Shown: positions 12,147-46,378 of the stretch, piece after piece | Layout of the letters: each line of letters starts with the position of its first letter | Position numbering within the stretch: the stretch's first letter is position 1 | Assembly: GCF_029382225.1 (NCBI RefSeq) | Contig: NZ_JARLTC010000028.1 | Coordinates: 1 to 64,000 of the forward strand | Direction: 5' to 3' | DNA length: 64,000 nucleotides | From: Spongiactinospora sp. TRM90649 | GTDB taxonomy: Bacteria > Actinomycetota > Actinomycetes > Streptosporangiales > Streptosporangiaceae | Program-made: the position numbers and the translations under genes | The notes under the pieces: model-generated | What the model saw: the letters and a program-made list of their open reading frames with translations, nothing else | Told to the model about the DNA's origin: nothing | Database searches by the model: none

Positions 12147-12279
12147 CGCCCGACCTCCCGTGTCCCACCCGGACCGACCTTAGCCCCGGGTCAGGTCAGG
12201 AGCCAGCCACCGCCCGCGGCGAGGCCGACGCCGTTGCCGGCGGGCCTTTCGGGCGGCCTGTGTTGTCCGGGCGTCCTGC

Positions 12280-12292
12280 TTTAATGCGGGGC
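12280..12292 (+). promoter_or_regulatory. Minus-10 element of a probably leaderless host gene
   Basis: TTTAAT (12280-12285) stands 7 bases before ATG 12293 with no ribosome site in between, the spacing of a leaderless transcript. No good -35 is visible. In the integrated state this promoter would read through the host gene fragment into the integrase gene. Confidence 0.4.
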
Positions 12293-12373
12293 ATGGCAGA
12301 GCAGGCCCCCCAGGGCGCGCCGGAACACCCGCCCGGCACCACCATCTCGGGTGTTCTGGAGCGGATCCCCTGA
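12293..12373 (+). pseudogene. 5' fragment of a host gene, probably a RecD2-type helicase, interrupted by the element
   Basis: ATG 12293 opens 26 codons ending in ISGVLERIP and a TGA. Actinobacterial RecD2-like helicases begin with a short variable tail followed by GVLERIT-like sequence and continue for about 700 residues. Here the match stops after seven or eight residues and the integrase starts 20 bases after the stop. The simplest reading is that the element inserted in the first codons of this gene, and the rest lies beyond the unseen right end. The identification rests on a very short match. Confidence 0.45.
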
Positions 12374-12393
12374 GAATCACCAATGAGGGAACC
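12340..12393. other. Predicted left attachment junction (attL)
   Basis: Host-like coding sequence ends and element sequence begins within these bases, immediately upstream of a large serine integrase gene. Such integrases recombine across a 2-base core inside ~40-50 bp sites. The exact crossover cannot be set without the other junction, which is outside the window. Confidence 0.5.
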
Positions 12394-14286
12394 ATGCAGC
12401 CAGCGGCTCATTTTCCTGTCCTCCCCGGCGGCCTGAAGCCCGCCATCGGGTACGTCCGCGTCTCGATGATGCTGGGCGAGAAGATCTCTCCAGAAGTCCA
12501 GATGGACTCCATCTCGGCCTGTGCCGCGCGTAAGGGGTTCTACGTTCCCGAGGGACTGTGGCCGCACGGCGGATGGATCGTCGAGCTGGACGTGTCGGGA
12601 CGCGACTTCAAGCGCGACATTCAGATCGCGGTGCAGGCCGTCGAGCAGCGCGTCGTGCGCGCGATCATCGTGTGGGAGTTCAGCCGGTTCGGCCGTGACC
12701 GGGAGGGCAATCCGACGCACCTGGGACGCATCGAGCGGGCGGGCGGGGAACTGGTGTCCGCGACCGAGGACGTGGACGCGCGCACCCCTGCCGGGCGCCT
12801 GGCTCGCGGGATTCACTTCGAGTTCGCCGCCTACTATTCGGACCTGGTGGGGCAACGCTGGTCGGAGGCGTTCCAGAACCGGCTCAAGCGCGGCCTGCCG
12901 CCACTGGGCGGTGACTACTTCGGCTACGTGCGCCGGGGCCGACAGCCTCATCCGCTGTTCCACGATCGGACCCTGCTCAATCCGGCGGACGGGCCTGAGC
13001 GCTATGAGCCCGACGTCGAGGGCGGCACGGGCGGCGCCTTGGCCGACATGTATGCGATATGGCTTACTGAACGTAACTTCTACGGTCTCGCGAAGAGTCT
13101 GAACATGCAGGGGATCCGGAAGACGACCGGCCGCGAATGGCACGCAGACGAAGTGGCCGAGGTGCTCGACCATGGATTCGGGGCGGGAAAGATCAGCGTG
13201 CACGACCCGGATTGCGAGTGCGGGCGACCGTCGCGGTGCGGGCACAGGGTGCTGTTCCCCGGCACCCAAAGGCCGGTGATCGGCATGGCGACGTGGGAGG
13301 CGTACGTCGACGCCCGGCAGGAAATGCAGCGGCTCCCACGCAAATCGCGCACATCCCGGCATTCGCTGTCCGGCCTGATCGTGCACGGACCGTGCGGGGG
13401 CGTCATGCACGTCTCCCGGCCCGCTGGGGACTTACAGGGATTCAAATGCGGCTGGCGGCAACGGCAGGGCGCTCGGACGGCGGGGGCGGAGGGTGTGGTG
13501 GTGTGCCAGGACACGTTCGTGCAGCGGTCATTGGTGATCCGGGCCCTGCTTGACGTGCTGGCCGAGTGGGTGCCGATGATCGAAGAGGCCGCACGGGCGA
13601 CGAGGCCAGAGCCGGGGACGAGCGACTCGAAGCAGCAGGCGATGCGACGGCTGCAACGGGAGCTGAGGCGTCTGGACGCTGAGCTGGACGAACAGACCAT
13701 GCTCCTGGCCCGCAAGGTCATCCCGGAAGACGCCTACGTCCGGGTCCGCGACAAGTGCCTCGCCGACCGGGCGGCGAAGCAGGCGGCGCTGGACACCCTA
13801 GAAGGACGTGCGAAGCCAGGCAGGGATGCCTTAGCGGCCGTTCCGGTGATCGAGGGCTTGGTGGCGGAGTGGGACAGTCTCGCCGTGACGGATCGGCGTC
13901 GGCTGCTGATGGAAGTGATCGAACGGGTAGAGGTGTGGCGCGACCGGCTGGACATCGCGCGAATCGTGGTGGTGCCGCGTTGGGAAGGCGGTCAGCCGGT
14001 CACGCGCGAGCTTCCGGGACGGCGGCGGATGGAGGCCGTGCGACGGGCGATCCCGGTTGTTCTGGCCGAGCGGTTCGGTGGGGCGGCTCGCTACGAGCGG
14101 CTGCGCGAGGTGGTGGCCGAGGCGGTGCCGGCCAGCAAGAAGGTGTTCAACGCGGCGATTCTGGGTCTGGCCGCCGAGGGGGCTCTGGTGCGCGAGCCAC
14201 TCAAAGATAAGCAGGGCACGGTGTATCGGCTGCCCGATGCGGTAGCGGAAGCACCCGCAGCATCGGGCAGCGAAACGAGGCGCTGA
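12394..14286 (+). CDS. int: Large serine integrase
   Basis: 630 residues; phiC31-type integrases are about 600. Catalytic domain at residues 16-165: the nucleophile is Ser24 in GYVRVSMM, with the arginine-rich EFSRFGRDREG near 105. Recombinase domain follows at about 190-290. A zinc-ribbon region lies around 330-380, with Cys residues in GPCGGVMH and FKCGW. A coiled coil lies at about 412-450 (the synapsis-control arm), and an unusual ~100-residue C-terminal extension is present. GAGGG precedes ATG 12394. Two TTA leucine codons (13432, 13831) are in frame, rare in such GC-rich genomes. It catalyses attP x attB integration, and with an RDF, excision. Confidence 0.95.
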   Translation: MQPAAHFPVLPGGLKPAIGYVRVSMMLGEKISPEVQMDSISACAARKGFYVPEGLWPHGGWIVELDVSGRDFKRDIQIAVQAVEQRVVRAIIVWEFSRFGRDREGNPTHLGRIERAGGELVSATEDVDARTPAGRLARGIHFEFAAYYSDLVGQRWSEAFQNRLKRGLPPLGGDYFGYVRRGRQPHPLFHDRTLLNPADGPERYEPDVEGGTGGALADMYAIWLTERNFYGLAKSLNMQGIRKTTGREWHADEVAEVLDHGFGAGKISVHDPDCECGRPSRCGHRVLFPGTQRPVIGMATWEAYVDARQEMQRLPRKSRTSRHSLSGLIVHGPCGGVMHVSRPAGDLQGFKCGWRQRQGARTAGAEGVVVCQDTFVQRSLVIRALLDVLAEWVPMIEEAARATRPEPGTSDSKQQAMRRLQRELRRLDAELDEQTMLLARKVIPEDAYVRVRDKCLADRAAKQAALDTLEGRAKPGRDALAAVPVIEGLVAEWDSLAVTDRRRLLMEVIERVEVWRDRLDIARIVVVPRWEGGQPVTRELPGRRRMEAVRRAIPVVLAERFGGAARYERLREVVAEAVPASKKVFNAAILGLAAEGALVREPLKDKQGTVYRLPDAVAEAPAASGSETRR

Positions 14287-14434: not shown

Positions 14435-14500
14435 TGAACGACATGTTCGTTCAATTCATGTCTTTTCGTTGACTTGCGCGCAAATCGCGTTAGTCTGATA
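14435..14500 (+). promoter_or_regulatory. Left-block promoter with TTGCGCGCAA operator and an upstream palindrome
   Basis: TTGACT (14469-14474), a 16-base spacer and TAGTCT (14491-14496) form the promoter. The perfect palindrome TTGCGCGCAA (14474-14483) lies directly behind the -35. A second palindrome, TGAACGA-N5-TCGTTCA (14435-14453), lies 15 bases upstream. The promoter closely resembles that at 42,215. The remaining gap 14,287-14,600 holds this region, the hairpin, one GTAAGC site and one CCCACCC motif; no gene is seen. A ~100-base leader precedes the first gene. Confidence 0.65.
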
Positions 14501-14585: not shown

Positions 14586-14600
14586 GGAATGGATTCCGTC

Positions 14601-15218
14601 ATGCCTGCGATGACCCACGCCCTCGCGACAACCGCCACCCGCCGACTGCGCCGCCCCGAGCGGTTCGCCACCCGCGAGCTGGCCGAAACGCTGCTGACCA
14701 CCCTGCGGATGGTGCGCCGCGCCGAGAACGCCCTCCTGACCGGCCCCGGCGCCTGCGAGGACGACGTGCGCGAGGCACTGATCAAGGCTCTGCGCACCGC
14801 CGACTGGCCGCGCGGAATGGCCAACGGCGCCATCGAATTCGCGCTGGCCCACGACGACCTCACCATGGCGCTGGCCATGTACGCCTACGTGGAGGGGCAC
14901 CCCCACGAGACGGCTCAGCCCGAGCCGCGTCAGTTCGTCGTCACCGACGAGCAGGCGCAGGCGATGGCCGACGCCATTGCCACGGCCTTCGGCGCGCATG
15001 GCACCGGCCATGAGCCGTGCGTGCTCGATCCCGACTGGGACAGCGAGCCCGGCCGCGTCCTGAGCTGGGAAGAAGGGCCGTACCGCTGGGCCTGGCTGGT
15101 GCCCGGTGGCGGTGAGGACACCGAGTACGGCCGCACGGTGGCCCCCATCGAGGTCCCCGCCGGTCTGCGGATCGAGCCGATCACCCACTTCAGCGTGCGT
15201 GTGCTGCCCGTCGCCTAG
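14601..15218 (+). CDS. Hypothetical phage-type protein, first gene of the left block
   Basis: 205 residues, no family recognised. The first ~100 residues look helical and charged (RRPERFATRELAETLLTTLR; ACEDDVREALIKALR), and the C-terminal part is beta-rich with SWEEGPYRWAWLVPGGG. ATG 14601 is preferred because the ATG at 14589 would leave one base behind GAGGAA. Position right after the operator-controlled promoter makes it an early-expressed gene; a regulatory or take-over role is possible but not shown. Confidence 0.75.
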   Translation: MPAMTHALATTATRRLRRPERFATRELAETLLTTLRMVRRAENALLTGPGACEDDVREALIKALRTADWPRGMANGAIEFALAHDDLTMALAMYAYVEGHPHETAQPEPRQFVVTDEQAQAMADAIATAFGAHGTGHEPCVLDPDWDSEPGRVLSWEEGPYRWAWLVPGGGEDTEYGRTVAPIEVPAGLRIEPITHFSVRVLPVA

Positions 15219-15292: not shown

Positions 15293-15323
15293 CTCATTCA
15301 TGGCACCGGCCAGGAGGTACCGC

Positions 15324-16760
15324 ATGCCCTCTCCCACCGTGGAACAGACCCGCATCATGGAGGACTTCGTCGCCGGTAAGGCACTTCGCGTCCAGGCCGG
15401 AGCCGGGGCCGGGAAGACGACCACGCTCAAGATGGCCGCTGCGGCCACTCCCCGCCGCAAAGGCCTGTACGTGGCGTTCAACAAGGTGATCGCCACCGAA
15501 GCCGCCGCCTCCTTCCCCGAGAGCGTGAGCTGCCGCACGGGCCACTCACTCGCCTACGCGGCCGTGGGACGCACGTACGCGCGCCGCCTCAAGGCTCCGC
15601 GCATGTCCTCGCACCTGGTCGCCTGCAAGATGGGCATCAACGAGCCGGTACGGCTGGACGAGGGACGCGTGCTCGCCCCGGCACAGGTCGCGCGGGTCGT
15701 CATGGCGACGGTCGCCAACTTCACCCACTCCGACCGCCGCGACATCGCCCATCAGCCCGTCGCCCGGCTGCGCGGCTGGGAGGACGACGACGCGATGGAG
15801 GCGCTCGAACAGGTGGTTCCGCCGCTGGCGCTCAGGGCGTGGGCCGACCTGACGAACCCGCGCGGCGGCCTGCCGTTCAGCCACGACACCTACTTCAAGA
15901 TCTGGTCCCTGGCCGACCCCCAGCTTGCCGCCGACTTCGTGATGGTGGACGAATTCCAGGACACCAACCCGGCGCTGCTGTCGGTCATCCGCGCGCAGCG
16001 CTCGGCACAGATCGTGGCTGTGGGGGACTCCGCGCAGGCGATCTACGAGTGGCGGGGAGCGATCGACGCGATGAACGCGATCGACGGCGTGGAGCGCACC
16101 CTGTCGCAGAGTTTCCGGTTCGGCGAGGCCGTCGCCGAGGAGGCGAACAAGTGGCTGGAGATCCTTGACGCGCCGCTTCGTCTGCGCGGTTTCGAGGCGA
16201 TCAATTCGCGGGTCGCCGAACTGGAGGAGCCGGACGCGATTCTCTGCCGCACGAACGCCGAGGCCATGGCGCAGGCCATGGCGGGTCTCGACAAGGGCAA
16301 GCGCGTGGCACTCGTGGGTGGGGGAAGGCAGATCCGCGCCATGGCCGAAGCCGCTCTCCAGCTCCAGGAAGGGCGAGGGTGCGACCACCCCGAACTGTGC
16401 GCCTTCCAGAACTGGGGCCAAGTACAGCAGTACGCGTTCGTCGAGGAGGACGGCCAGGACCTCCAGGCCATGGTGAAGCTGATCGACGGCCACGGGGCCG
16501 AAAAGATCATCGACGTGGCGGACGCCCTCGACCGCGAGGAAGCCGCTGACCTGATCATCTCGACCGCGCATCGCTCCAAGGGGCGCGAGTGGCACCGCGT
16601 GCGGGTCGCCGGAGACTTCTCCGAGCCCAAGCCGACCGACGACGGGCGGCCCGGCAAGGTCACCCCTGCCGACGCGCGTCTGGCCTACGTCACTGTGACC
16701 CGCGCCCAGCATGTGCTCGACACCGGCGGCCTGAGCTGGGTGGACAAATATCTCGCCTGA
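15324..16760 (+). CDS. UvrD/Rep-like superfamily 1 helicase
   Basis: 478 residues, shorter than host UvrD (~700). Walker A GAGAGKTT at 26-33, Walker B VDEFQD at 208-213, motif III-type GDSAQAIYEWRGA near 233, QSFRF near 256, AHRSKGREW near 414 and motif VI AYVTVTRA near 455. All helicase motifs are present, while the 1B/2B insertions are small, as in phage and plasmid members. AGGAGG sits 6 bases before ATG 15324. It probably unwinds or remodels DNA during replication or recombination of the element. Cytoplasmic. Confidence 0.92.
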   Translation: MPSPTVEQTRIMEDFVAGKALRVQAGAGAGKTTTLKMAAAATPRRKGLYVAFNKVIATEAAASFPESVSCRTGHSLAYAAVGRTYARRLKAPRMSSHLVACKMGINEPVRLDEGRVLAPAQVARVVMATVANFTHSDRRDIAHQPVARLRGWEDDDAMEALEQVVPPLALRAWADLTNPRGGLPFSHDTYFKIWSLADPQLAADFVMVDEFQDTNPALLSVIRAQRSAQIVAVGDSAQAIYEWRGAIDAMNAIDGVERTLSQSFRFGEAVAEEANKWLEILDAPLRLRGFEAINSRVAELEEPDAILCRTNAEAMAQAMAGLDKGKRVALVGGGRQIRAMAEAALQLQEGRGCDHPELCAFQNWGQVQQYAFVEEDGQDLQAMVKLIDGHGAEKIIDVADALDREEAADLIISTAHRSKGREWHRVRVAGDFSEPKPTDDGRPGKVTPADARLAYVTVTRAQHVLDTGGLSWVDKYLA

Positions 16761-22112: not shown

Positions 22113-22889
22113 GTGTCTCAGCTCAGCGACGTGAATCTTCACGCCATCAATTCCCTCACCAAGTACCCCTCGATTCCGACCCACCACCGGATGGACCCTC
22201 AGGGCAAGGGCGGCTTGCTAGAGGAGCCGACCATTTTCACCGGGCCGGTCATCGGCACTGAGAAGGTGGACGGAACCAACGGGCGGATCATCGTGCTGCC
22301 CAGCGGCACATGGTTGATCGGCTCTCGCGAAGACCTTCTCACCGCCAGTGGCGACATCGTGCACAACACGGCGCTCGGCGTCGTCGATGCCCTTCGGCCG
22401 GTCGCCGAGTCCGCGGCCACGATGGTGGCGGGCGGGTTCAGCGAGATTCTGGTGCTGTACCTGGAGGTGTACGGCTCCAGGCGGCTTCCGGCCTGGAAGC
22501 AGTACGGGTGCGGCGAGGCGGCGTACCGGCTGTTTGACGTGGCGTCGGTCCCGGCTGGGATGCTGTCGTGGGAGGTCGAGCGCATCGCCTCGTGGAGGCA
22601 GAACGGCGGGCAGGAGTTCGCCGCGGAGCCGGTGCTCGGCGATCTGGCGGCCCGCTGCGACCTGGCGCTCACCCCCCGCCTGTTCGAGATCGACGGCGGC
22701 GACCTGCCCTCCGACATCGAGGGCATGCGCGCCTTCATGGAGGCGTACCGGGGCACGCGGGTGGCCACCTCGGGCGAGCCCGGCCTGAACGAGGGGATCG
22801 TCCTGCGCGCCCCGGACCGAAGCGTGATCTCCAAGGCCCGGTTCCAGGACTACGACCGGACGCTCCAGCGCCGCGAAGGGCAGCGGTGA
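22113..22889 (+). CDS. RNA ligase family protein (Rnl2-like nucleotidyltransferase)
   Basis: 258 residues with the covalent-nucleotidyltransferase motifs in order: motif I KVDGTNGR with catalytic Lys51, motif IIIa LYLEVYG with Glu118, motif IV EGIVLR with Glu227, and motif V SKARF with Lys241. It is shorter than T4 Rnl2 (334), so the C-terminal domain is lacking or reduced. Expected to seal nicked RNA using ATP. Phage RNA ligases repair tRNAs cut by host defence nucleases; a partner kinase-phosphatase is not seen nearby. Confidence 0.85.
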   Translation: MSQLSDVNLHAINSLTKYPSIPTHHRMDPQGKGGLLEEPTIFTGPVIGTEKVDGTNGRIIVLPSGTWLIGSREDLLTASGDIVHNTALGVVDALRPVAESAATMVAGGFSEILVLYLEVYGSRRLPAWKQYGCGEAAYRLFDVASVPAGMLSWEVERIASWRQNGGQEFAAEPVLGDLAARCDLALTPRLFEIDGGDLPSDIEGMRAFMEAYRGTRVATSGEPGLNEGIVLRAPDRSVISKARFQDYDRTLQRREGQR

Positions 22890-25083: not shown

Positions 25084-25386
25084 ATGGGTGCTTCGTCAAA
25101 GCTGAACCGGCGCGGCCTCGCCGAGGCGATCGCAGGCATGACGGGACACGACCACGAGCAGGTGGACGAGGTCCTCAAGGCCGCCACGTTGGTGATCAAG
25201 AAATGTGTCGCTGACGGTGGCACTGTCACGATCGCCGACTTCGGCACGTGGCGGCTGGGCCACCGGAAGGCCAGGATGCATCAGGTTCCCACGACGGGTG
25301 CGCCGGTGCCGAAGCCGGAGCACTGGAAGCCCGTGTGGACGCCTGGTAAGGGATTCCGGACGGCAACTCGCGCCTACGGTAGCTAG
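25084..25386 (+). CDS. HU-family DNA-binding protein
   Basis: 100 residues, the usual HU size. N-terminal helices NRRGLAEAIAGMTGHDHEQV, the saddle strand TVTIADFGTWRLGHRKAR, and C-terminal TPGKGFRTATRAYG are typical, although the DNA-binding arm is Pro/His-rich rather than Arg/Lys-rich. Probably bends element DNA for replication or recombination. AAGGGAG precedes the ATG. Last gene of the left block, followed by a hairpin terminator. Confidence 0.85.
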   Translation: MGASSKLNRRGLAEAIAGMTGHDHEQVDEVLKAATLVIKKCVADGGTVTIADFGTWRLGHRKARMHQVPTTGAPVPKPEHWKPVWTPGKGFRTATRAYGS

Positions 25387-37584: not shown

Positions 37585-38391
37585 ATGAATCCGGAATCCG
37601 GTCAGCGTGAAATGGCTCCGCCCGGCGTGGACCCCACTGTGCCGAGCGTGGCGAGAATGTACGACTATGGACTCGGCGGCACCACTAACTACAGGATCGA
37701 CCGCGAGATCTCCGACAAGCTCTGGGCGGCGGCACCAGACCTGCCCGCGCTGACTCACGACGGACGCCGCTTCCTGGAGCGGGTCGTGCGCTTCATGGTC
37801 GAGGCCGGAGTCGACCAGATCATCGACATCGGGTCCGGCCTGCCCACCGCGAACAACGTCCACCAGGTCGCGCAGGCGATCAACCCGGCTGTACGCGTCG
37901 TATACGTGGACAACGACCCTACGGTCCACATTCACGCGCAGGCCCTGCTGTCCGGCGACGAGCGCACGCGCTACGTCGATTCCGACGCGCGCACTCCGGC
38001 CCAGATCATCAACCACCCCCACACCCAGCGGCTGATCGACTTCACCCGGCCGGTCGGGCTGATGTACCTGTATCTGCTGCACTACATCGCGGATGCCGAT
38101 GATCCGTACGGGTCCGTCCGGCGCGTCCTGGACGAGCTGGCAAGCGGCAGCTACCTCGTCATTTCCCACGTGACCCAGGAGGGAACCGACCCGCACCTAC
38201 ACGCCACCTTCCAGAAGGTGTTCTCAGGGGTCATCTTCCGGACCAAGGCCGAAATCCTGCGCTTCTTCGACGGCTGGGACATCATCACACCTCCGGGCAT
38301 GGTCAACGTCTCCGAGTGGAGCGCCACCGGGGACGCGCCGGGGGAGCCACGAGCACTACGGGCGTGGACGGCGGTGGCGATCAAGCCGTGA
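37585..38391 (+). CDS. SAM-dependent methyltransferase, DUF574 type, second copy
   Basis: 268 residues. VPSVARMYDYGLGGTTNYRI and IIDIGSGLPTANNVHQVAQA are the family marks, with VVYVDNDPTVH, as in the 33,265 gene; the two are clearly divergent, so not a recent duplication. AAAGGA precedes the ATG. Its last codons overlap the last codons of the SARP gene on the opposite strand by 11 bases. Confidence 0.88.
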   Translation: MNPESGQREMAPPGVDPTVPSVARMYDYGLGGTTNYRIDREISDKLWAAAPDLPALTHDGRRFLERVVRFMVEAGVDQIIDIGSGLPTANNVHQVAQAINPAVRVVYVDNDPTVHIHAQALLSGDERTRYVDSDARTPAQIINHPHTQRLIDFTRPVGLMYLYLLHYIADADDPYGSVRRVLDELASGSYLVISHVTQEGTDPHLHATFQKVFSGVIFRTKAEILRFFDGWDIITPPGMVNVSEWSATGDAPGEPRALRAWTAVAIKP

Positions 38392-40939
38392 TGACGCTCA
38401 GTGCCGATGCGGCGAACTGCTCGTAGGTGCGATCTCCTCGCCTGGTGCTGATCTCCCGCCCCGTCTCAACGGCGGTCTGACAGGTTGTCGCGGCCTCGTC
38501 CGTCCGCCCCAGGGCATGCTCGATCAAGACCAGTGTGCGAAGAGAGGCGACCTCGGCGTAGTCGTCCCCGGCGGTCTGGGCCAGCGTCAGCGCCATGCGA
38601 GCGTCCTGCTCCGCCTGAGCCAGCAGGCCCGGATCGTTCTCACCGGCTGTCTGGGCCATCTCGTGGCGGCAGTGGGCGCGCAATGCCAGCGCACGCGCCC
38701 ACGACCGTCGGTCGACCAGTCGTTGCAGTACCTCGGCACAGTCGTTCAACATGGGCACGGCTCGCAGCGGTCCGCCTTCGGTGGCGGCGACCAGTGCGGC
38801 GGCTCGCAGCCGGGCTTGGGCCCCCAGGCGGTCGTCGCCGGTCTCCACGGCGATACGCGTGATCACACGCCACATGTCCTCGGCGTCGCGAGACCGGCCG
38901 CTGCGGTTCAGATGAGCGGAGATCCGCAGAGCGATCCCGAAGGCCAGGCGGAACCGGCGCTCGGCCAGTTCCATCCGGATCACGCCGAAAATCTGCGTGG
39001 CCTCGGCGGTGAGCCAGCCCTCGGGATCGGAGGCGACCAGTTCCCAGGCCACCTCGGGGATGAGGTCGATCGAGGTGTCCATCGTGGACGGCGGGGCGAA
39101 CCACGGCTCGCCCGGCGTGGCCGCCGCCGCCCGGTCGGCGAGCAACAGCCATCCGGTCAGCAGCCGATGTGTGGCCACGTCGCGCTCGTCCGGCCGGTCG
39201 GCGAGCCGCCGCTCGGCGTACTCACGGACCAGGTCGTGCATGCGGTAACGCGGATGGCCGTGGGCGTCGGCGCCGGCGGGCAGCACCAGATTGTGCGCAT
39301 TGAGGGCGGCCAGCGCGTCTTCGCCGTCCCCCTTACCGATCAGCATGTCCGCCAGCCACATGGGCCAAGAACCGGATCCGGCCAGGGACAGCACGCGCAG
39401 CGCGTGCCGGACTTGTTCCGATAGGGCGTCATAGCTGTCGGCAATGCTGGCTGAAACGGCCACATCCCCATCGGTCAGGCCCGCCAGCCGATCGTGCAAC
39501 CGGGTGGCCAGCAGCCCGATCGGCCAGTGTGGATGCGCCGTCAGCCTGCCTGCGGCGATGCGCAGCGCGAGTGGCAGGTCGGCGCAGGCGTCCAGGATCG
39601 CGTCGGCCGCGCTCGGCTCGGCGTCGATGCGGTCGGCTCCAATGAGCTCCGCCAGCAGGTGGCGGGCCTCGTCGCGGCGCAGCGGGTCAAGCGTCATCGA
39701 GCGGATACCGGGGCCGCTCAGCCGGGGGCGGCTGGTGATGAGAACGGCGCAGCCCGGTGTGCCGGGAACGAACAACCCGCCCTGGGCGGCGCTCGCCACA
39801 TCGTCGATGACCAGCAGGACCTTGCGGTCGGCCAGGACCGATCGGAGAAGGGCCGAGCGTCCGGCGGTGGACGCGGGGATGTCGGCGGCCGGCACACCGA
39901 GCAGGACGAGTTGCTCGGCGAGCGCTTCTCCGACCGCGACCGGCCGTCCCGACATCGCTCCCAAGTGCACGAAGATCTGGCCGTCCGGGAACCGCCGCCG
40001 CACCCGGTGACCGAGGTGAACGGCGAGAGCGGTCTTGCCGACGCCGGGCATGCCGGTGATGTTGATCACTGGTACGGCCGCGCCGGACGCGGGAACGTGG
40101 GTGAGGATGGCGGTGATCTCCGCCAGGCGGCCGACGAAGTCGGGCAGGTCGGCCGGGAGTTGGGCGGGGATCACTCGCCGCGTCGCGATGACGTCGGGTG
40201 TAGCGGCCGGGCGTGGCTCGTGCAGCACGTCGGCCGCGATGTCGTCATGCAGCCGACGCAGCCGCCCGCCCGGATCACTTCCCGTTTCCCGGCGTAAGAG
40301 AACGGCGAAGGCGTCATAGTGCCGAAGGGCATCAACCCGATCTCCCGCCCGATACAGGGAGTCCATCAGAGCCGCATGCAGGGCCTCCGATAGCGGATCG
40401 TCCTGGAGCGCACGTCGCACCGCGGTGAGAGCATCGCGATGCCGACCCAGCGATGTCAGCGTCTGGACCAGTTCCAGACGGGCGTCGCGATGCTGGCGCA
40501 AGAGTTCGTCCCGCACTCCGCGAAGCAGTGACGAGTCATCCGGCATGTCCGGCACCGGGGGATCACCGAGCAATTCCACCGCCCGGCCGAGAAGATGTGC
40601 CCTGACCACGGCCTCGGATGCGCCCTCGGCGGCCGTGACAAGGCGGCGAAACTCGGTCAGATCAAGCGCGTCGTCATCGCCCAACACGATCCGGTATCCA
40701 GCCGATCCGCCGGGCGGTATGCGGCCAGGCAGCAGACGGCGCAGTTCGGAGACGACCGTCTTCACGGCGCCGTCGCGACCGTGATCATCTCCCCATACGC
40801 CTTCGGCCAGTTCGGCGCCGGACAGTCCGCGATCGTGCAGAGCCAGCAGGGCGCACAGCACGCGGCGCTGAAGGGGGGACAAGGTGACCGGACCTGCGTG
40901 GTCGATGACGCCGACCTGCCCGAGAATGTGGAACTGCAT
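38381..40939 (-). CDS. Large SARP-type regulator (OmpR-like wHTH, BTAD, NB-ARC, TPR)
   Basis: 852 residues. Winged helix at ~1-85 (LSPLQRRVLCALLALHDRGL), bacterial transcriptional activation domain at ~95-240, an NB-ARC ATPase with Walker A GMPGVGKTALA near 295 and VLLVIDDV near 370, then helical TPR-like repeats to the end. This is the AfsR layout; AfsR-like proteins activate secondary metabolism or developmental genes. Finding one within an integrated element suggests it drives cargo or host genes. Possible targets in the window: the divergent 41,056 gene or the kinase/radical SAM run. Confidence 0.88.
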   Translation of the reverse strand: MQFHILGQVGVIDHAGPVTLSPLQRRVLCALLALHDRGLSGAELAEGVWGDDHGRDGAVKTVVSELRRLLPGRIPPGGSAGYRIVLGDDDALDLTEFRRLVTAAEGASEAVVRAHLLGRAVELLGDPPVPDMPDDSSLLRGVRDELLRQHRDARLELVQTLTSLGRHRDALTAVRRALQDDPLSEALHAALMDSLYRAGDRVDALRHYDAFAVLLRRETGSDPGGRLRRLHDDIAADVLHEPRPAATPDVIATRRVIPAQLPADLPDFVGRLAEITAILTHVPASGAAVPVINITGMPGVGKTALAVHLGHRVRRRFPDGQIFVHLGAMSGRPVAVGEALAEQLVLLGVPAADIPASTAGRSALLRSVLADRKVLLVIDDVASAAQGGLFVPGTPGCAVLITSRPRLSGPGIRSMTLDPLRRDEARHLLAELIGADRIDAEPSAADAILDACADLPLALRIAAGRLTAHPHWPIGLLATRLHDRLAGLTDGDVAVSASIADSYDALSEQVRHALRVLSLAGSGSWPMWLADMLIGKGDGEDALAALNAHNLVLPAGADAHGHPRYRMHDLVREYAERRLADRPDERDVATHRLLTGWLLLADRAAAATPGEPWFAPPSTMDTSIDLIPEVAWELVASDPEGWLTAEATQIFGVIRMELAERRFRLAFGIALRISAHLNRSGRSRDAEDMWRVITRIAVETGDDRLGAQARLRAAALVAATEGGPLRAVPMLNDCAEVLQRLVDRRSWARALALRAHCRHEMAQTAGENDPGLLAQAEQDARMALTLAQTAGDDYAEVASLRTLVLIEHALGRTDEAATTCQTAVETGREISTRRGDRTYEQFAASALSVITA

Positions 40940-41055: not shown

Positions 41056-41559
41056 GTGATCAAGGTGCACGACGGCATCAGCATGCACAGCGTCGTGGGC
41101 GTCTTCCAGGAGTTGGCCGACGCCGGGCGCCGCCCGGCCGGTGAAGGACTGGAGCTGCTCGGAGAGCTTGCCCGCCAGCGAGACGAGCTTGCGGCCCGCG
41201 CGCGGGCACAGCAGTTGGCGATCGAACTGCTGATGGGCCATGTGATCGTGGCCTTGCGTGGGCAGTGCCCGGCCGTGCTCGGGTCGGTGATCGCGCAGGC
41301 GATCGGCCGCGACGGCTCGACGGTCTCGCGCCTGGCCCACAGATCCGGCGGGCCAAGCCTGCGGGCGGGGACCGGTCGGCGAGGCGGGGCGGCCGGGAGT
41401 GGCGACAGGGCATTGCTCCGTAAGGCGATCGAGGCCGAGCGCGCGACGTTGCTGGCGACGGCCGGCGCTGGGGCTGAACGTGCTGCGGTCGTCGCTGCCG
41501 AGATGGACGCCTTCTGCATGAACTATCTGCCGCGCCGACGTGTCAGTTCTTGCGCATGA
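41056..41559 (+). CDS. Hypothetical protein
   Basis: About 167 residues from GTG 41056, behind GGGACGAG. An HTH-like segment lies at ~72-97 (AVLGSVIAQAIGRDGSTVSR) with an Arg/Gly-rich loop after it, so it may bind DNA. Divergent from the SARP gene across 116 bases, and overlaps the 3' end of the repressor-like gene by 17 bases. Not recognised. Confidence 0.6.
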   Translation: MIKVHDGISMHSVVGVFQELADAGRRPAGEGLELLGELARQRDELAARARAQQLAIELLMGHVIVALRGQCPAVLGSVIAQAIGRDGSTVSRLAHRSGGPSLRAGTGRRGGAAGSGDRALLRKAIEAERATLLATAGAGAERAAVVAAEMDAFCMNYLPRRRVSSCA

Positions 41560-42049
41560 TCCGGACCTGTGTGGCGTGCATCTCGTACATGGCAACGGCT
41601 TGGGCGGTCAGCGCGGCGGCCATCGCTTCATGCTCCCGCTGTGTCACCGGAAGGGCGCGGATCTCCTCGATGGCCGCCTCAAGCCAGGTGCGCAGCCCGG
41701 CTGGCAGATTCTCCATCTCTGGAGCGGCGGCTTCGTGGCCCGATGTGAGGCGCGCACGGAACAGTGCGGCGGCCTCGTGCGCTCCGGCCGCGTCCAGATG
41801 GTCAGGGGTGATGTTGTCCAGGGCGCCCTCATCCGACAACACCAGGGCCATCGTCGCGACGCGCGGTGGTTTGCTGAGCACCACCTGGTCGCCCTTCTCA
41901 GCCGCGTCCCACGTATTGCGGGAGAACCGGCCGCCGGAGATCCTTGCCGCCCGCCGTGCCGCCTCGTTCACCGACAGGGCGTCCAGCCTGGCCTCCCGTG
42001 CGCGCACCAATAGCCTGGCCAGAGCGGCCACTGGAATGTCGTCGGCCAT
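41543..42049 (-). CDS. Repressor-like protein with XRE-type helix-turn-helix (candidate immunity repressor)
   Basis: 168 residues from ATG 42049 behind GGGAG. Residues ~20-70 read as an XRE-like fold: ALSVNEAARRAARISGGRFS, RNTWDAAEKGDQ, then PPRVATMALVLSDEGAL, the pattern seen in small actinophage repressors. The C-terminal half is helical (TWLEAAIEEIRALPVT). It is divergent from an excisionase-like gene across a 200-base region with three TTGCGCGC sites, the classic repressor/early-gene arrangement. Confidence 0.6.
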   Translation of the reverse strand: MADDIPVAALARLLVRAREARLDALSVNEAARRAARISGGRFSRNTWDAAEKGDQVVLSKPPRVATMALVLSDEGALDNITPDHLDAAGAHEAAALFRARLTSGHEAAAPEMENLPAGLRTWLEAAIEEIRALPVTQREHEAMAAALTAQAVAMYEMHATQVRIMRKN

Positions 42050-42094: not shown

Positions 42095-42108
42095 CTGTTT
42101 TTGCGCGC
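42095..42108 (-). promoter_or_regulatory. 12-mer GCGCAAAAACAG with an overlapping TTGCGCGC half-operator
   Basis: On the minus strand this follows TTGAAC (42115-42120), a possible -35 for the repressor-like gene. TTGCGCGC at 42101-42108 matches 8 of 10 bases of the palindrome. It could be the autoregulatory operator, while the 12-mer is shared with the region before the 36,099 gene. Confidence 0.5.
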
Positions 42109-42200
42109 TCTAGTGTTCAAACGGTAGCAGGCAGTCCCCCTCCTGTCAGGATGAGTTGCCCTTCCATGGACTTTCGCTCACTTCATTGAACTGAAATGAC

Positions 42201-42242
42201 TTGCGCGCAAAGTGTTGATTTGCGCGCAAATTCGATTAAACT
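42201..42242 (+). promoter_or_regulatory. Twin TTGCGCGCAA operators on a leaderless promoter
   Basis: Perfect palindromes at 42201-42210 and 42220-42229 (19 bases apart). The second lies directly behind TTGATT (-35, 42215-42220), with TAAACT (-10, 42237-42242) after a 16-base spacer. The expected transcript starts at or one base before GTG 42250, so the first gene is leaderless. Binding at either site would cover the promoter. Confidence 0.7.
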
Positions 42243-42249
42243 GATCTCT

Positions 42250-42687
42250 GTGACACCACTTGCGACCGACGAAGATCATCATGCGGATGATCTTGATTTA
42301 CACGACCTCATCAGCGTGAGCGCATTCGCCGCGATGCTCGGAGTCAGTGCCACCGTGGCACGCAACGTCGTTCGCGAGGGCGGTGTCGCCCATTTCAAGA
42401 TCGCGAAGAAGTCCGTGCGCATCCCCCGCGCGGAGGCGCAGCGCTACTGCGCCACTCCTCAGGGGCGTCTGCACCGCGAGGCCGCCGAGCGTGCCGAGTC
42501 GCCGCCGCAGGGGTGGCTCACGGTGGCTCAGGCGGCGAAGGTGATGACCGTCTCGGAGCGAACAGTGATCGCCCTCCTCGCCGATGGCGCACTGGAGGCC
42601 GAGGTGATCGACGGCGGCCGGTACGTCGGCCACCAGGAGATCCAGGAGTACCTCGCCGCCGTGTTCGTGCCCGCAAGGGCCGCCTGA
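42250..42687 (+). CDS. Tandem winged-helix protein, excisionase/MerR-like (first gene of the right block)
   Basis: 145 residues with two helix-turn-helix units of the excisionase type: LISVSAFAAMLGVSATVARN at ~16-36 with FKIAKKSVRIPRAEAQRY, and WLTVAQAAKVMTVSERTVIA at ~80-100 with GGRYVGHQEIQEYL. Double-unit proteins of this kind can bind DNA as monomers. Faces the repressor-like gene, so it could act as the anti-repressor or early regulator rather than as a true excisionase, since a gp3-like RDF is also present. Confidence 0.75.
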   Translation: MTPLATDEDHHADDLDLHDLISVSAFAAMLGVSATVARNVVREGGVAHFKIAKKSVRIPRAEAQRYCATPQGRLHREAAERAESPPQGWLTVAQAAKVMTVSERTVIALLADGALEAEVIDGGRYVGHQEIQEYLAAVFVPARAA

Positions 42688-44295: not shown

Positions 44296-45233
44296 TGACC
44301 GCCCCCCGGTACGCGGTCGATACGCCGAATGGCCGGTACTACCGCGACCCGAAGGACGGCCTCGACGGACCGCCCCGCTACGTCTCGGTCACCAACGTCA
44401 TCAACCAATGGGACAAGGACGCCCTCGCGCCCGGCGCGGCCAAGGCGACCGTCGCCCACATGATGGAGCACCTCCCGGCCGCGGTGCGGGCCTCGCGCCA
44501 CCCCGAGACGCGCGAGGCGTTCGCCAAGGAGGCACGGGGCGCGTTCCGCAAGATCTGGGACAAGGCCGCCGACTTCGGCACGCTGGTTCACAAGCTCGCC
44601 GATGCCCACCTCACCGGACGCCATCTCACCTGGTTCTCTCCCGAGGAGCAGGAGGAACTGGCCGAGGCCCGTGAGTTCCTGGACACCTACCTGGAGTGGA
44701 TGGGCGACTTCGGCGTGGACGCCGAGGGCGACGTTCACTCCAGTGAGATCACCGTCTACAACCGGACCTATGGCTATGCGGGCACCGCGGACCTCTGGGT
44801 CGATCTGACCTTTCCGCAACCGCAGTCGCCACAGCATCCGCGCTACCGGTCGCGCACCTACCCGCAGATGACCATCACCACGCCGTCCGGGCTGTGGCTC
44901 GTGGACGGCAAGACCAGCCGCAACCCCAACAAGCAGCCCTCCGAGGTCTACCGCGACCACCTCGCCCAGCTTGCCGCGCTGCGGTTCGCCGAGACCGCGC
45001 TGCTGCCGGACGGCACTGAGATTCCCGTGCCGCAGTTCGTCGGCACGGCGATTCTCAACCTCCGCCCTGACGGCAAGTACGCGTTCGTTCCCATGCACGC
45101 GGGCCCGCAGGAGTTCGAGGTGTTCCTGCACCTCAAGGAGATCGCCGGATACGTGCACGACCAGCTCGACATGCGCCGCTACCGGCCGATCGTCCCCCCT
45201 GCCCGCACCACCACCAGGAAGGGTGCCGCCTGA
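44295..45233 (+). CDS. PD-(D/E)XK nuclease (RecB/Cas4-like phage exonuclease family)
   Basis: 312 residues. GTLVHKLADAHLTGRHLTWF near 97-116 supplies the His of Cas4/RecB-like nucleases, Asp166 is in GYAGTADLWVDL, and the DxK motif is Asp204-Gly-Lys206 in WLVDGKTS. The segment SEVYRDHLAQLAALRFAE gives the conserved QxxxY-like helix region. ATG 44295 overlaps the preceding TGA. Probably resects DNA ends for recombination, acting with the RDF/recombination genes that follow. Confidence 0.8.
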   Translation: MTAPRYAVDTPNGRYYRDPKDGLDGPPRYVSVTNVINQWDKDALAPGAAKATVAHMMEHLPAAVRASRHPETREAFAKEARGAFRKIWDKAADFGTLVHKLADAHLTGRHLTWFSPEEQEELAEAREFLDTYLEWMGDFGVDAEGDVHSSEITVYNRTYGYAGTADLWVDLTFPQPQSPQHPRYRSRTYPQMTITTPSGLWLVDGKTSRNPNKQPSEVYRDHLAQLAALRFAETALLPDGTEIPVPQFVGTAILNLRPDGKYAFVPMHAGPQEFEVFLHLKEIAGYVHDQLDMRRYRPIVPPARTTTRKGAA

Positions 45234-46378
45234 TGCCCATCCGCCCGTCCATGATCCAGCGCCGCCTCGCCGAAGCGGGGCGGATCCGGCTCGGACACCG
45301 GGTGCCCACCAAGAACAACAAGCTCCGGCCGGAGAAACTGGCGACCTTCCGCTTCACCTCTCCCGACCAGCGGCGTATCGAGGAGATCGCCGCGCTGTAC
45401 GGCGGCACCGCGCAGCCGTGGGAGGAGAAGAAGCAGTGGCAGGTCATCACCGAGACCGACCGCATCCCCATCACGGTCCCGCCCAACGCCTCCAGCGAGT
45501 GGATGGAGCTGTGGTCGGGCGGGGGCGCGGTGCGCCGCTGCGATGGCGAGACCGAGATCAAGTCCAGCAAGCCGTGCCTGTGCAGGGCGTCCAGGCAGAT
45601 GGCGTGCAAGCCGCACACCCGCGTCAGCCTTCTCCTGCGCGAGGTGACCGGCATGGGCACGTGGCGAATCGAGCCCAAGTCGTGGGACGCCGCCGCTGAG
45701 CTGCCCGACCTGGTGGAGTTCCTCGCCAGTGTCGGCCGGTACATCGACGCCGACCTGGTGCTCGACCCACGAACGAAGGTCAAGGACGGCAAGACCTTCG
45801 AGTGGTGGGTGCCCATGCTGGACCAGAGCCAGTACACCTTCGGACAGCTCACCGAAGCCGCCCGCACTGGGACGCTGACCGCAGGTCCCGCTGTCGCGAC
45901 TGCCGCCCTCGCCGGCACGGCCCGAGCGGCCATCCAGGCTCTCGGTGCGGCATTGGCGGCCGAGGACCTGATGATGGCCGCGCGCCTTGCTGAGACCACG
46001 GCCGAGTTGCGTGCCATCTGGGAGCGCAGCAAGACCGAAGGGGTCCGGTTCAACCAGGAGCAGCGCGCCGAGTTCGACCGGCTCGTCATCGCCGCGAAGC
46101 AGCACACGGCGCAGTCCAGCTCGCCGCAGGGCGCCGTGCCTGCTCAGCAGGAGCCCCCCGAGGCCGAGATCGTGGACGCCGAGCCGGTGGACGAGAACGA
46201 CGCCGACCTGCTGTGGATGCAGATCGTCTCCGCCTGGCCGGGCACCACGAGTGAGCTGGAGGTGGCGTTCGAGGGAGCGATGGGCGCACTGCCGGGTGAC
46301 GCCGGTACTGACGAGTACAAGAGCTTCCTCACAGCGCTCAGGTCGGGTCGGATCAAGCCGCTGAAGGGAGTGGCGTGA
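45233..46378 (+). CDS. phiC31 gp3-like recombination directionality factor family protein
   Basis: 381 residues; phiC31 gp3 is 244. The N-terminal ~200 residues follow the gp3 family pattern: RRLAEAGRIRLGHRVPTKNN, PEKLATFRFTSPDQRRIEEI, AALYGGTAQPWEEKKQWQVI, WMELWSGGGAVRRCDG and the Cys-containing KPCLC...CKPH. An extra ~180-residue Ala/Glu-rich C-terminus is present. In phiC31 gp3 binds the serine integrase and turns it from integration to excision; by analogy it would control excision of this element. The match is from memory, not alignment. Confidence 0.75.
   Translation: MPIRPSMIQRRLAEAGRIRLGHRVPTKNNKLRPEKLATFRFTSPDQRRIEEIAALYGGTAQPWEEKKQWQVITETDRIPITVPPNASSEWMELWSGGGAVRRCDGETEIKSSKPCLCRASRQMACKPHTRVSLLLREVTGMGTWRIEPKSWDAAAELPDLVEFLASVGRYIDADLVLDPRTKVKDGKTFEWWVPMLDQSQYTFGQLTEAARTGTLTAGPAVATAALAGTARAAIQALGAALAAEDLMMAARLAETTAELRAIWERSKTEGVRFNQEQRAEFDRLVIAAKQHTAQSSSPQGAVPAQQEPPEAEIVDAEPVDENDADLLWMQIVSAWPGTTSELEVAFEGAMGALPGDAGTDEYKSFLTALRSGRIKPLKGVA

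Follow-up and report, generated by a model that had tools for sequence, protein, structure and literature searches.

A palindrome shared by two distant promoters of a Spongiactinospora prophage, putative operator of its immunity repressor

Introduction

In phage lambda one repressor, cI, acts on both OL/PL and OR/PR, which serve separate blocks of genes flanking the immunity region. Mycobacteriophage BPs codes for a small repressor, gp33, and has a divergent early promoter, PR, with a palindromic operator positioned between its -35 and -10 elements; a further operator is found close to the repressor gene, past the promoter of that gene, and others at promoters across the genome (PMC4557955). 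The BPs operators pair two palindromic half sites, of which one is variable (PMC4557955). The stoperators of L5 and Bxb1 and the dispersed repressor sites of phiC31 number about 18–30 per genome, those of L5 being asymmetric and mostly located within transcribed DNA (PMC6550527; PMC4557955). The locus described here belongs to a prophage of Spongiactinospora sp. TRM90649, whose layout is closest to that of BPs. The stretch analysed, hereafter the window, is composed of the first 64,000 nucleotides of the prophage contig (C38).

Organization of the prophage

The window holds most of an element that, judged from its sequence, is a complete-looking prophage of ~105 kb. Its genes code for a large serine integrase, a terminase, the major head protein, tail proteins, a DNA clamp, a primase/helicase and a Gp3-like recombination directionality factor. 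The element most likely extends from ~12.3 to ~117.2 kb because of its flanking repeats, the layout of recD, the uninterrupted recD of a genus-mate and the ends found in S. gelatinilytica. The flanking 16-bp repeat CCTGCTTTAATGCGGG has its right copy at contig position 117098, and past each copy a recD-like gene begins, a truncated 5' part on the left and the full gene on the right. In the genus-mate (G099) recD is uninterrupted; S. gelatinilytica shares both the left remnant and the right end. The element is inserted into the 5' part of the recD-like gene, for which it supplies a replacement 5' end, recD staying open downstream (C38:117098-117250), and the original recD 5' remnant precedes the integrase gene (12275-12400). 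With its most likely right end at ~117.2 kb, the prophage would include the two sites described below, at 110.16 kb and 117.03 kb.

The left block also codes for an RNA ligase (PF09414) and an HU-type DNA-binding protein (PF00216), at 22113-22889 and 25084-25386. Between the two blocks, a leftward cargo region carries the gene for a SARP-type activator with BTAD and NB-ARC domains (38381-40939, minus strand). A cluster read as 7-deazaguanine (queuosine-type) genes (C38:72109-75719) points to a possible modification of the phage DNA; the one gene of this cluster that was scanned codes for a queuine tRNA-ribosyltransferase-like protein (72717-73601, phrog_7068). A GntR-like regulator and an FtsK/SpoIIIE-like (TraB-like) protein, as in actinomycete conjugative elements, are encoded within the prophage at C38:110238-114734. 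A plasmid search gave weak matches only, mostly to UvrD helicases. The coordinates of the features in the window are compiled in Table 1.

Table 1. Position of the regulatory sequences and genes of the prophage in the window
Feature	Position	Strand	Basis or remark
16-bp repeat flanking the element, left copy	12275..12290
Large serine integrase	12394..14286	+	PF00239 3.8e-15; phrog_95 integrase 1.7e-53
Extra palindrome TGAACGA-CATGT-TCGTTCA, exact 7+7 bp	14435..14453		reading
Left promoter: -35 TTGACT 14469-14474, 16-bp spacer, -10 TAGTCT 14491-14496	14469..14496	+	reading; kept in S. gelatinilytica and N. basaltis
Left putative operator TTGCGCGCAA, in promoter spacer	14474..14483
P0003, first annotated left-block gene, function unknown; start could be ATG 14601	14589..15218	+	homologues in prophages also holding a P0001 homologue
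UvrD-like DNA helicase, left block	15300..16760	+	phrog_1967 6e-87
P0001, proposed immunity repressor, 168 aa, divergent from right promoter	41543..42049	-	HTH_31 in family; XRE/lambda-repressor fold in model
Conserved GCGCGC half-site behind candidate repressor promoter	42103..42108		alignment of three prophages
Candidate P0001 promoter: CTGACA 42149-42144, 17-bp spacer, TACCGT 42126-42121	42121..42149	-	reading
Right putative operator, upstream copy TTGCGCGCAA	42201..42210		variant TAGCGTGCAA there in S. gelatinilytica
Right promoter: -35 TTGATT 42215-42220, 16-bp spacer, -10 TAAACT 42237-42242	42215..42242	+	reading; conserved
Right putative operator, promoter-spacer copy TTGCGCGCAA; ATTTGCGCGCAAAT is a perfect 14-bp palindrome	42220..42229
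P0002, HTH/excisionase-like, first right-block gene, GTG start	42250..42687	+	HTH_17 2.1e-12; phrog_66 excisionase and regulator 5.6e-12
Gp3-like recombination directionality factor, right block	45233..46378	+	PF18897 8.9e-38

The left and right promoters

The preliminary description held that the sequences at 14469 and 42215 are nearly the same and that their match runs to CTGAT. Direct reading gives, as described, TTGACTTGCGCGCAAAT for the left core (14469-14485) and TTGATTTGCGCGCAAAT for the right core (42215-42231), and the 31 bp ending in CTGAT agree at 24 of 31 positions. By part, the agreement is 16/17 for the 17-bp core, 1/5 over the five bases that follow, 4/6 for the -10 (left TAGTCT, right TAAACT, each after a 16-bp spacer) and 3/3 for the final GAT. 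From their sequence both promoters fit the vegetative actinobacterial type with a 16-bp spacer. The identical placing of the palindrome behind the -35 was found again: in both promoters, which are 28 kb apart, TTGCGCGCAA starts on the last base of the -35 and lies between this element and the -10. At the right promoter another exact copy of the palindrome, which the preliminary description does not mention, lies 19 bp upstream of the spacer copy. In the right promoters of this prophage and of its two orthologues the GTG start is found 6–7 nt past the -10, and the P0002 mRNA of the right block is probably leaderless.

The left promoter had also been called a copy of the right one, a term that does not hold. 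There is no duplicated segment: in the alignment, identity outside the promoter core drops to background (20% upstream and 31% downstream), which rules out a recent duplication of the promoter segment.

Restriction of the site to the prophage

With up to three mismatches, the 17-mer was found five times in the window against 0.09 expected from a dinucleotide shuffle. The whole genome (9,127,212 bases) was then searched for TTTGCGCGCAAA with at most one mismatch. Five places were found in the 9.1 Mb, all on the prophage contig between 14.4 and 117.1 kb: the left promoter, the two tandem sites of the right promoter, and two loci that lie past the end of the window. Matches to the 17-bp core with at most two mismatches are likewise confined to this contig, and a reversed control pattern gave two matches in the genome. 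The preliminary description had raised the possibility that the similarity recurs at many unrelated host promoters; the genome-wide search found TTTGCGCGCAAA restricted to the prophage instead. The exact 10-mer is present at 4 places genome-wide, 3 of them in the window; the fourth (C62:291077), intergenic and without the -35/palindrome layout, was taken as chance. A site at 71385 with three mismatches is at chance level.

Conservation in two orthologous prophages

The prophage of S. gelatinilytica 7K107 (G068) codes for a P0001 homologue with 63% identity. Its right promoter is TTGACTTGCGCGCAAAG, preceded by a variant of the upstream palindrome (Table 1), and its left promoter, TTGACTTGCGCGCAAAT, lies in the same gap between the serine integrase gene and P0003. 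Places resembling TTTGCGCGCAAA (at most one mismatch) in the 8-Mb genome of this strain are the left and right sites only. The Nonomuraea basaltis prophage has a P0001 homologue with 56% identity and the right site is present; the left site, TTGACTTGCGTGCAAAT, is found in the block leading to the UvrD helicase, and upstream of it come a tyrosine-type integrase gene (type read from the sequence), in place of the serine one, and then a small excisionase-like gene. The six left and right promoters of the three prophages share 88-100% identity in the 17-bp core, against 17-40% between the upstream flanks of left and right promoters. Because of this difference the left promoter reads as a separately maintained site and not as a fresh copy.

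The proposed repressor P0001

P0001 alone is without Pfam or PHROG match. Its family has diverged, and 9 of 16 aligned members match HTH_31. Foldseek alone gave no significant match for the structure model of P0001 (mean pLDDT 81.6) and no solved relative was found with the sequence profile of the family. Re-alignment with VIA-align matched residues 2-91 of the model to C.Esp1396I (Z 8.5, 69 residues, 2.1 Å); further matches of the same residues are ClgR (Z 8.3), an XRE regulator (8.2), HipB (8.0) and 434 Cro (5.5), Z scores that are moderate, with top matches nearly all of one fold. The model predicts that P0001 has an XRE/lambda-repressor-like five-helix HTH domain. Neither P0001 (168 aa) nor its family has a Pfam match to a peptidase domain, and the carboxyl-terminal half is predicted to be helical. 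No relatives were found for P0001 in INPHARED phages or IMG/VR, for P0002 in INPHARED phages or for P0003 in IMG/VR. The -10 of the candidate repressor promoter (TACCGT/TACGGT) is conserved in the three prophages, and the GCGCGC half-site at 42103-42108 may be autoregulatory, by analogy to BPs.

Further sites in the prophage

A site in promoter position, TTGCTTTGCGCGCATAA, is found at 110.16 kb on the minus strand and is kept in S. gelatinilytica (TTGCTTTGCGCGCATCG). Downstream of it lie a YrlA Y-RNA-like gene (109847-109959 on the minus strand; its Rfam match has an E value of 3.6e-8 and, at 43 bits, does not reach the gathering score of 69) and the gene of a phrog_850 RNA-binding family protein, which is read as Ro/TROVE-like. 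The arrangement of operator-promoter, Y-RNA-like gene and Ro-like gene within the prophage (C38:107725-110174) is also kept in S. gelatinilytica. At 117.03 kb a tandem pair with 19-bp spacing precedes a gene coding for 67 aa, and S. gelatinilytica has a degraded counterpart. As read from their sequence, these sites beyond the two blocks turn the picture of one regulator and two blocks into that of a small regulon. The sequence TTGACTTGCGTGCAACT (C38:97174-97190), ahead of a tail gene at 97266, shows the -35/palindrome layout and is a possible further operator; neither S. gelatinilytica nor N. basaltis gave a counterpart with up to three mismatches.

Palindromes and recognition helices in the distant family

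The divergent promoters across the P0001 family carry palindromes with a CGCG core, which in the clearest cases are in tandem with 19- or 20-bp spacing. Recognition helices S[RA]NTW are paired with TTGCGCGCAA, SEPxW/SEVAW with TGACGCGTCA and SDxTW/SDRSW with TTTCGCGAAA. This pairing is a correlation over a small set, in which some members have imperfect sites, and not a proven code. Homologues of P0003 are located 20-24 kb from the P0001 homologue where a single contig carries both.

In the TGACGCGTCA group, TGACGCGT[CT]A sites precede the left operon of G268, G280 and G028, and G104 has one weaker site there; such sites also precede the integrase gene of G268, G280, G028 and G294. Wherever two sites cluster within 60 bp, they are of the cognate motif. 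The left sites are without the neat spacer position found in the promoters of the window. Judging by these sequences, left and right palindromes change together in this group. The regions read in the TTTCGCGAAA group showed no cognate left site, and left-right coupling is therefore no family-wide rule. Upstream of the P0003 homologues of G207, G226 and G194, which are in or near the TTTCGCGAAA group, a common sequence GGTCGTTTTG[CT]AAA...GACGA is found that is not the cognate operator; it is perhaps the site of another regulator.

Discussion

It is highly probable, given these sequences, that P0001 is the immunity repressor of the prophage, binds TTGCGCGCAA and holds off the left and right promoters together. 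P0001 would bind the palindrome presumably as a dimer and, because the palindrome sits between the -35 and -10 of two vegetative-type promoters, dimers filling the spacer would exclude RNA polymerase. The right promoter, whose tandem operators 19 bp apart might provide stronger or cooperative binding, would drive the regulator/recombination/replication block, and the left promoter, with one operator, the block of P0003 and the UvrD-like helicase. Upon loss of the repressor both blocks would start together; one left operator versus two right ones could make their control unequal. The assignment of both blocks to one regulator in the preliminary description is thus retained as the best reading. 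It rests on sites that are restricted to the element, occupy both promoter spacers and are conserved in two diverged prophages, on the changed palindrome present at both blocks in the TGACGCGTCA group and, like the identity of the sites and the covariation of palindrome and repressor, on what can be read from the sequence.

Since both promoters fit the vegetative consensus, part of their likeness is expected, and the sites might belong to a host regulator or reflect ordinary promoter similarity, the phage blocks not being specifically linked. Against a distribution in which TTTGCGCGCAAA (at most one mismatch) is found nowhere else in the genome, and the 17-bp core (at most two mismatches) only on the prophage contig, this explanation is largely refuted and deserves hardly any weight. 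Binding of the palindromes by another phage protein would have P0002 as its most plausible candidate, a DNA-binding protein with two HTH domains (excisionase/Cro-like) that is encoded right behind the right operators. It would damp both promoters after induction, with P0001 having other targets or sharing the site. However, P0002 and its N. basaltis counterpart share 39% identity overall despite the same operators, whereas the helix 2-3 (HTH) segment of P0001 is identical at 27 of 29 positions, and across the distant family the palindrome tracks the recognition helix of P0001. A role of P0002 at these sites is very unlikely in our judgement, and P0001 is, from sequence and model, the likely binder of TTGCGCGCAA.

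A different question is whether a common operator imposes common control. The left block might have a second regulator, acting at the palindrome at 14435-14453, so that the two blocks would be timed differently; the single left site against two on the right would fit such an arrangement. The extra palindrome pointed out in the preliminary description does exist and its 7+7 bp are exact, but its role as a second control element found no support: the alignment shows it in the left promoter of neither S. gelatinilytica nor N. basaltis, and it is probably outside the shared switch. Actinobacterial LexA boxes have N4 spacing, which the GAAC-N5-GTTC core of this palindrome misses; a LexA box at 14435, not conserved either, was rejected. 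Separate control of the left block is unlikely, and joint repression by P0001 is the reading that we prefer.

A broader proposal is possible and is put forward tentatively: P0001 and its relatives may be an undescribed family of actinophage repressors whose operator specificity has changed (TTGCGCGCAA, TGACGCGTCA, TTTCGCGAAA) with the CGCG core and the 19-bp tandem spacing kept, whose dispersed operators have shifted jointly in some lineages and whose regulon takes in a Y RNA-Ro ribonucleoprotein module carried by the phage. The sites provide a testable regulatory map for large temperate phages of rare actinomycetes (Spongiactinospora, Nonomuraea and relatives). The matched series of helices and palindromes allows testing how an immunity repressor shifts its specificity and yet keeps its distant promoters, and the sites ahead of the Y RNA/Ro pair would link an RNA-protein module to phage induction.

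Comparison with known phage repressor systems

The likeness to BPs lies in the palindromic operator within the spacer of PR and in the further operators elsewhere in the genome, both of which are seen in the sequence of this prophage. It extends to a small proposed repressor whose gene diverges from the early promoter, to a possible further site by the repressor gene, past its candidate promoter, and to putative operators made up of two half sites with one of them variable. The palindrome itself is different, CGACATATGTCG in BPs and TTGCGCGCAA here. The tandem sites of the prophage differ from BPs in their regular 19-bp spacing. In BPs the attachment site is in the repressor gene, whereas the ends of the present element are in recD, at 12.3 and 117.1 kb, ~30 kb from the repressor gene (41.5-42.0 kb). 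What the prophage shares with lambda, as read from the sequence, is one putative operator recurring at two early promoters, each of which serves its own block; it differs in having two right sites and one left site instead of a tripartite organization and in the rightward direction of both promoters. The self-cleaving LexA-type peptidase domain at the carboxyl terminus of strict cI-type repressors was not seen in P0001 with Pfam.

As in L5, Bxb1 and phiC31, phage-specific sites are dispersed over an actinophage genome and their sequence co-varies with the repressor; the prophage also codes for a serine integrase and for a directionality factor of the Gp3-like (phiC31) type. The system is nevertheless not an L5-type stoperator system, in which 20-30 asymmetric sites lie mostly inside transcribed regions, since its five places (at most one mismatch of TTTGCGCGCAAA) are palindromic and all lie in promoters or ahead of genes. 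The working principle is thus known from other phages, while the P0001 repressor family and its matching set of switch sequences appear to be undescribed.
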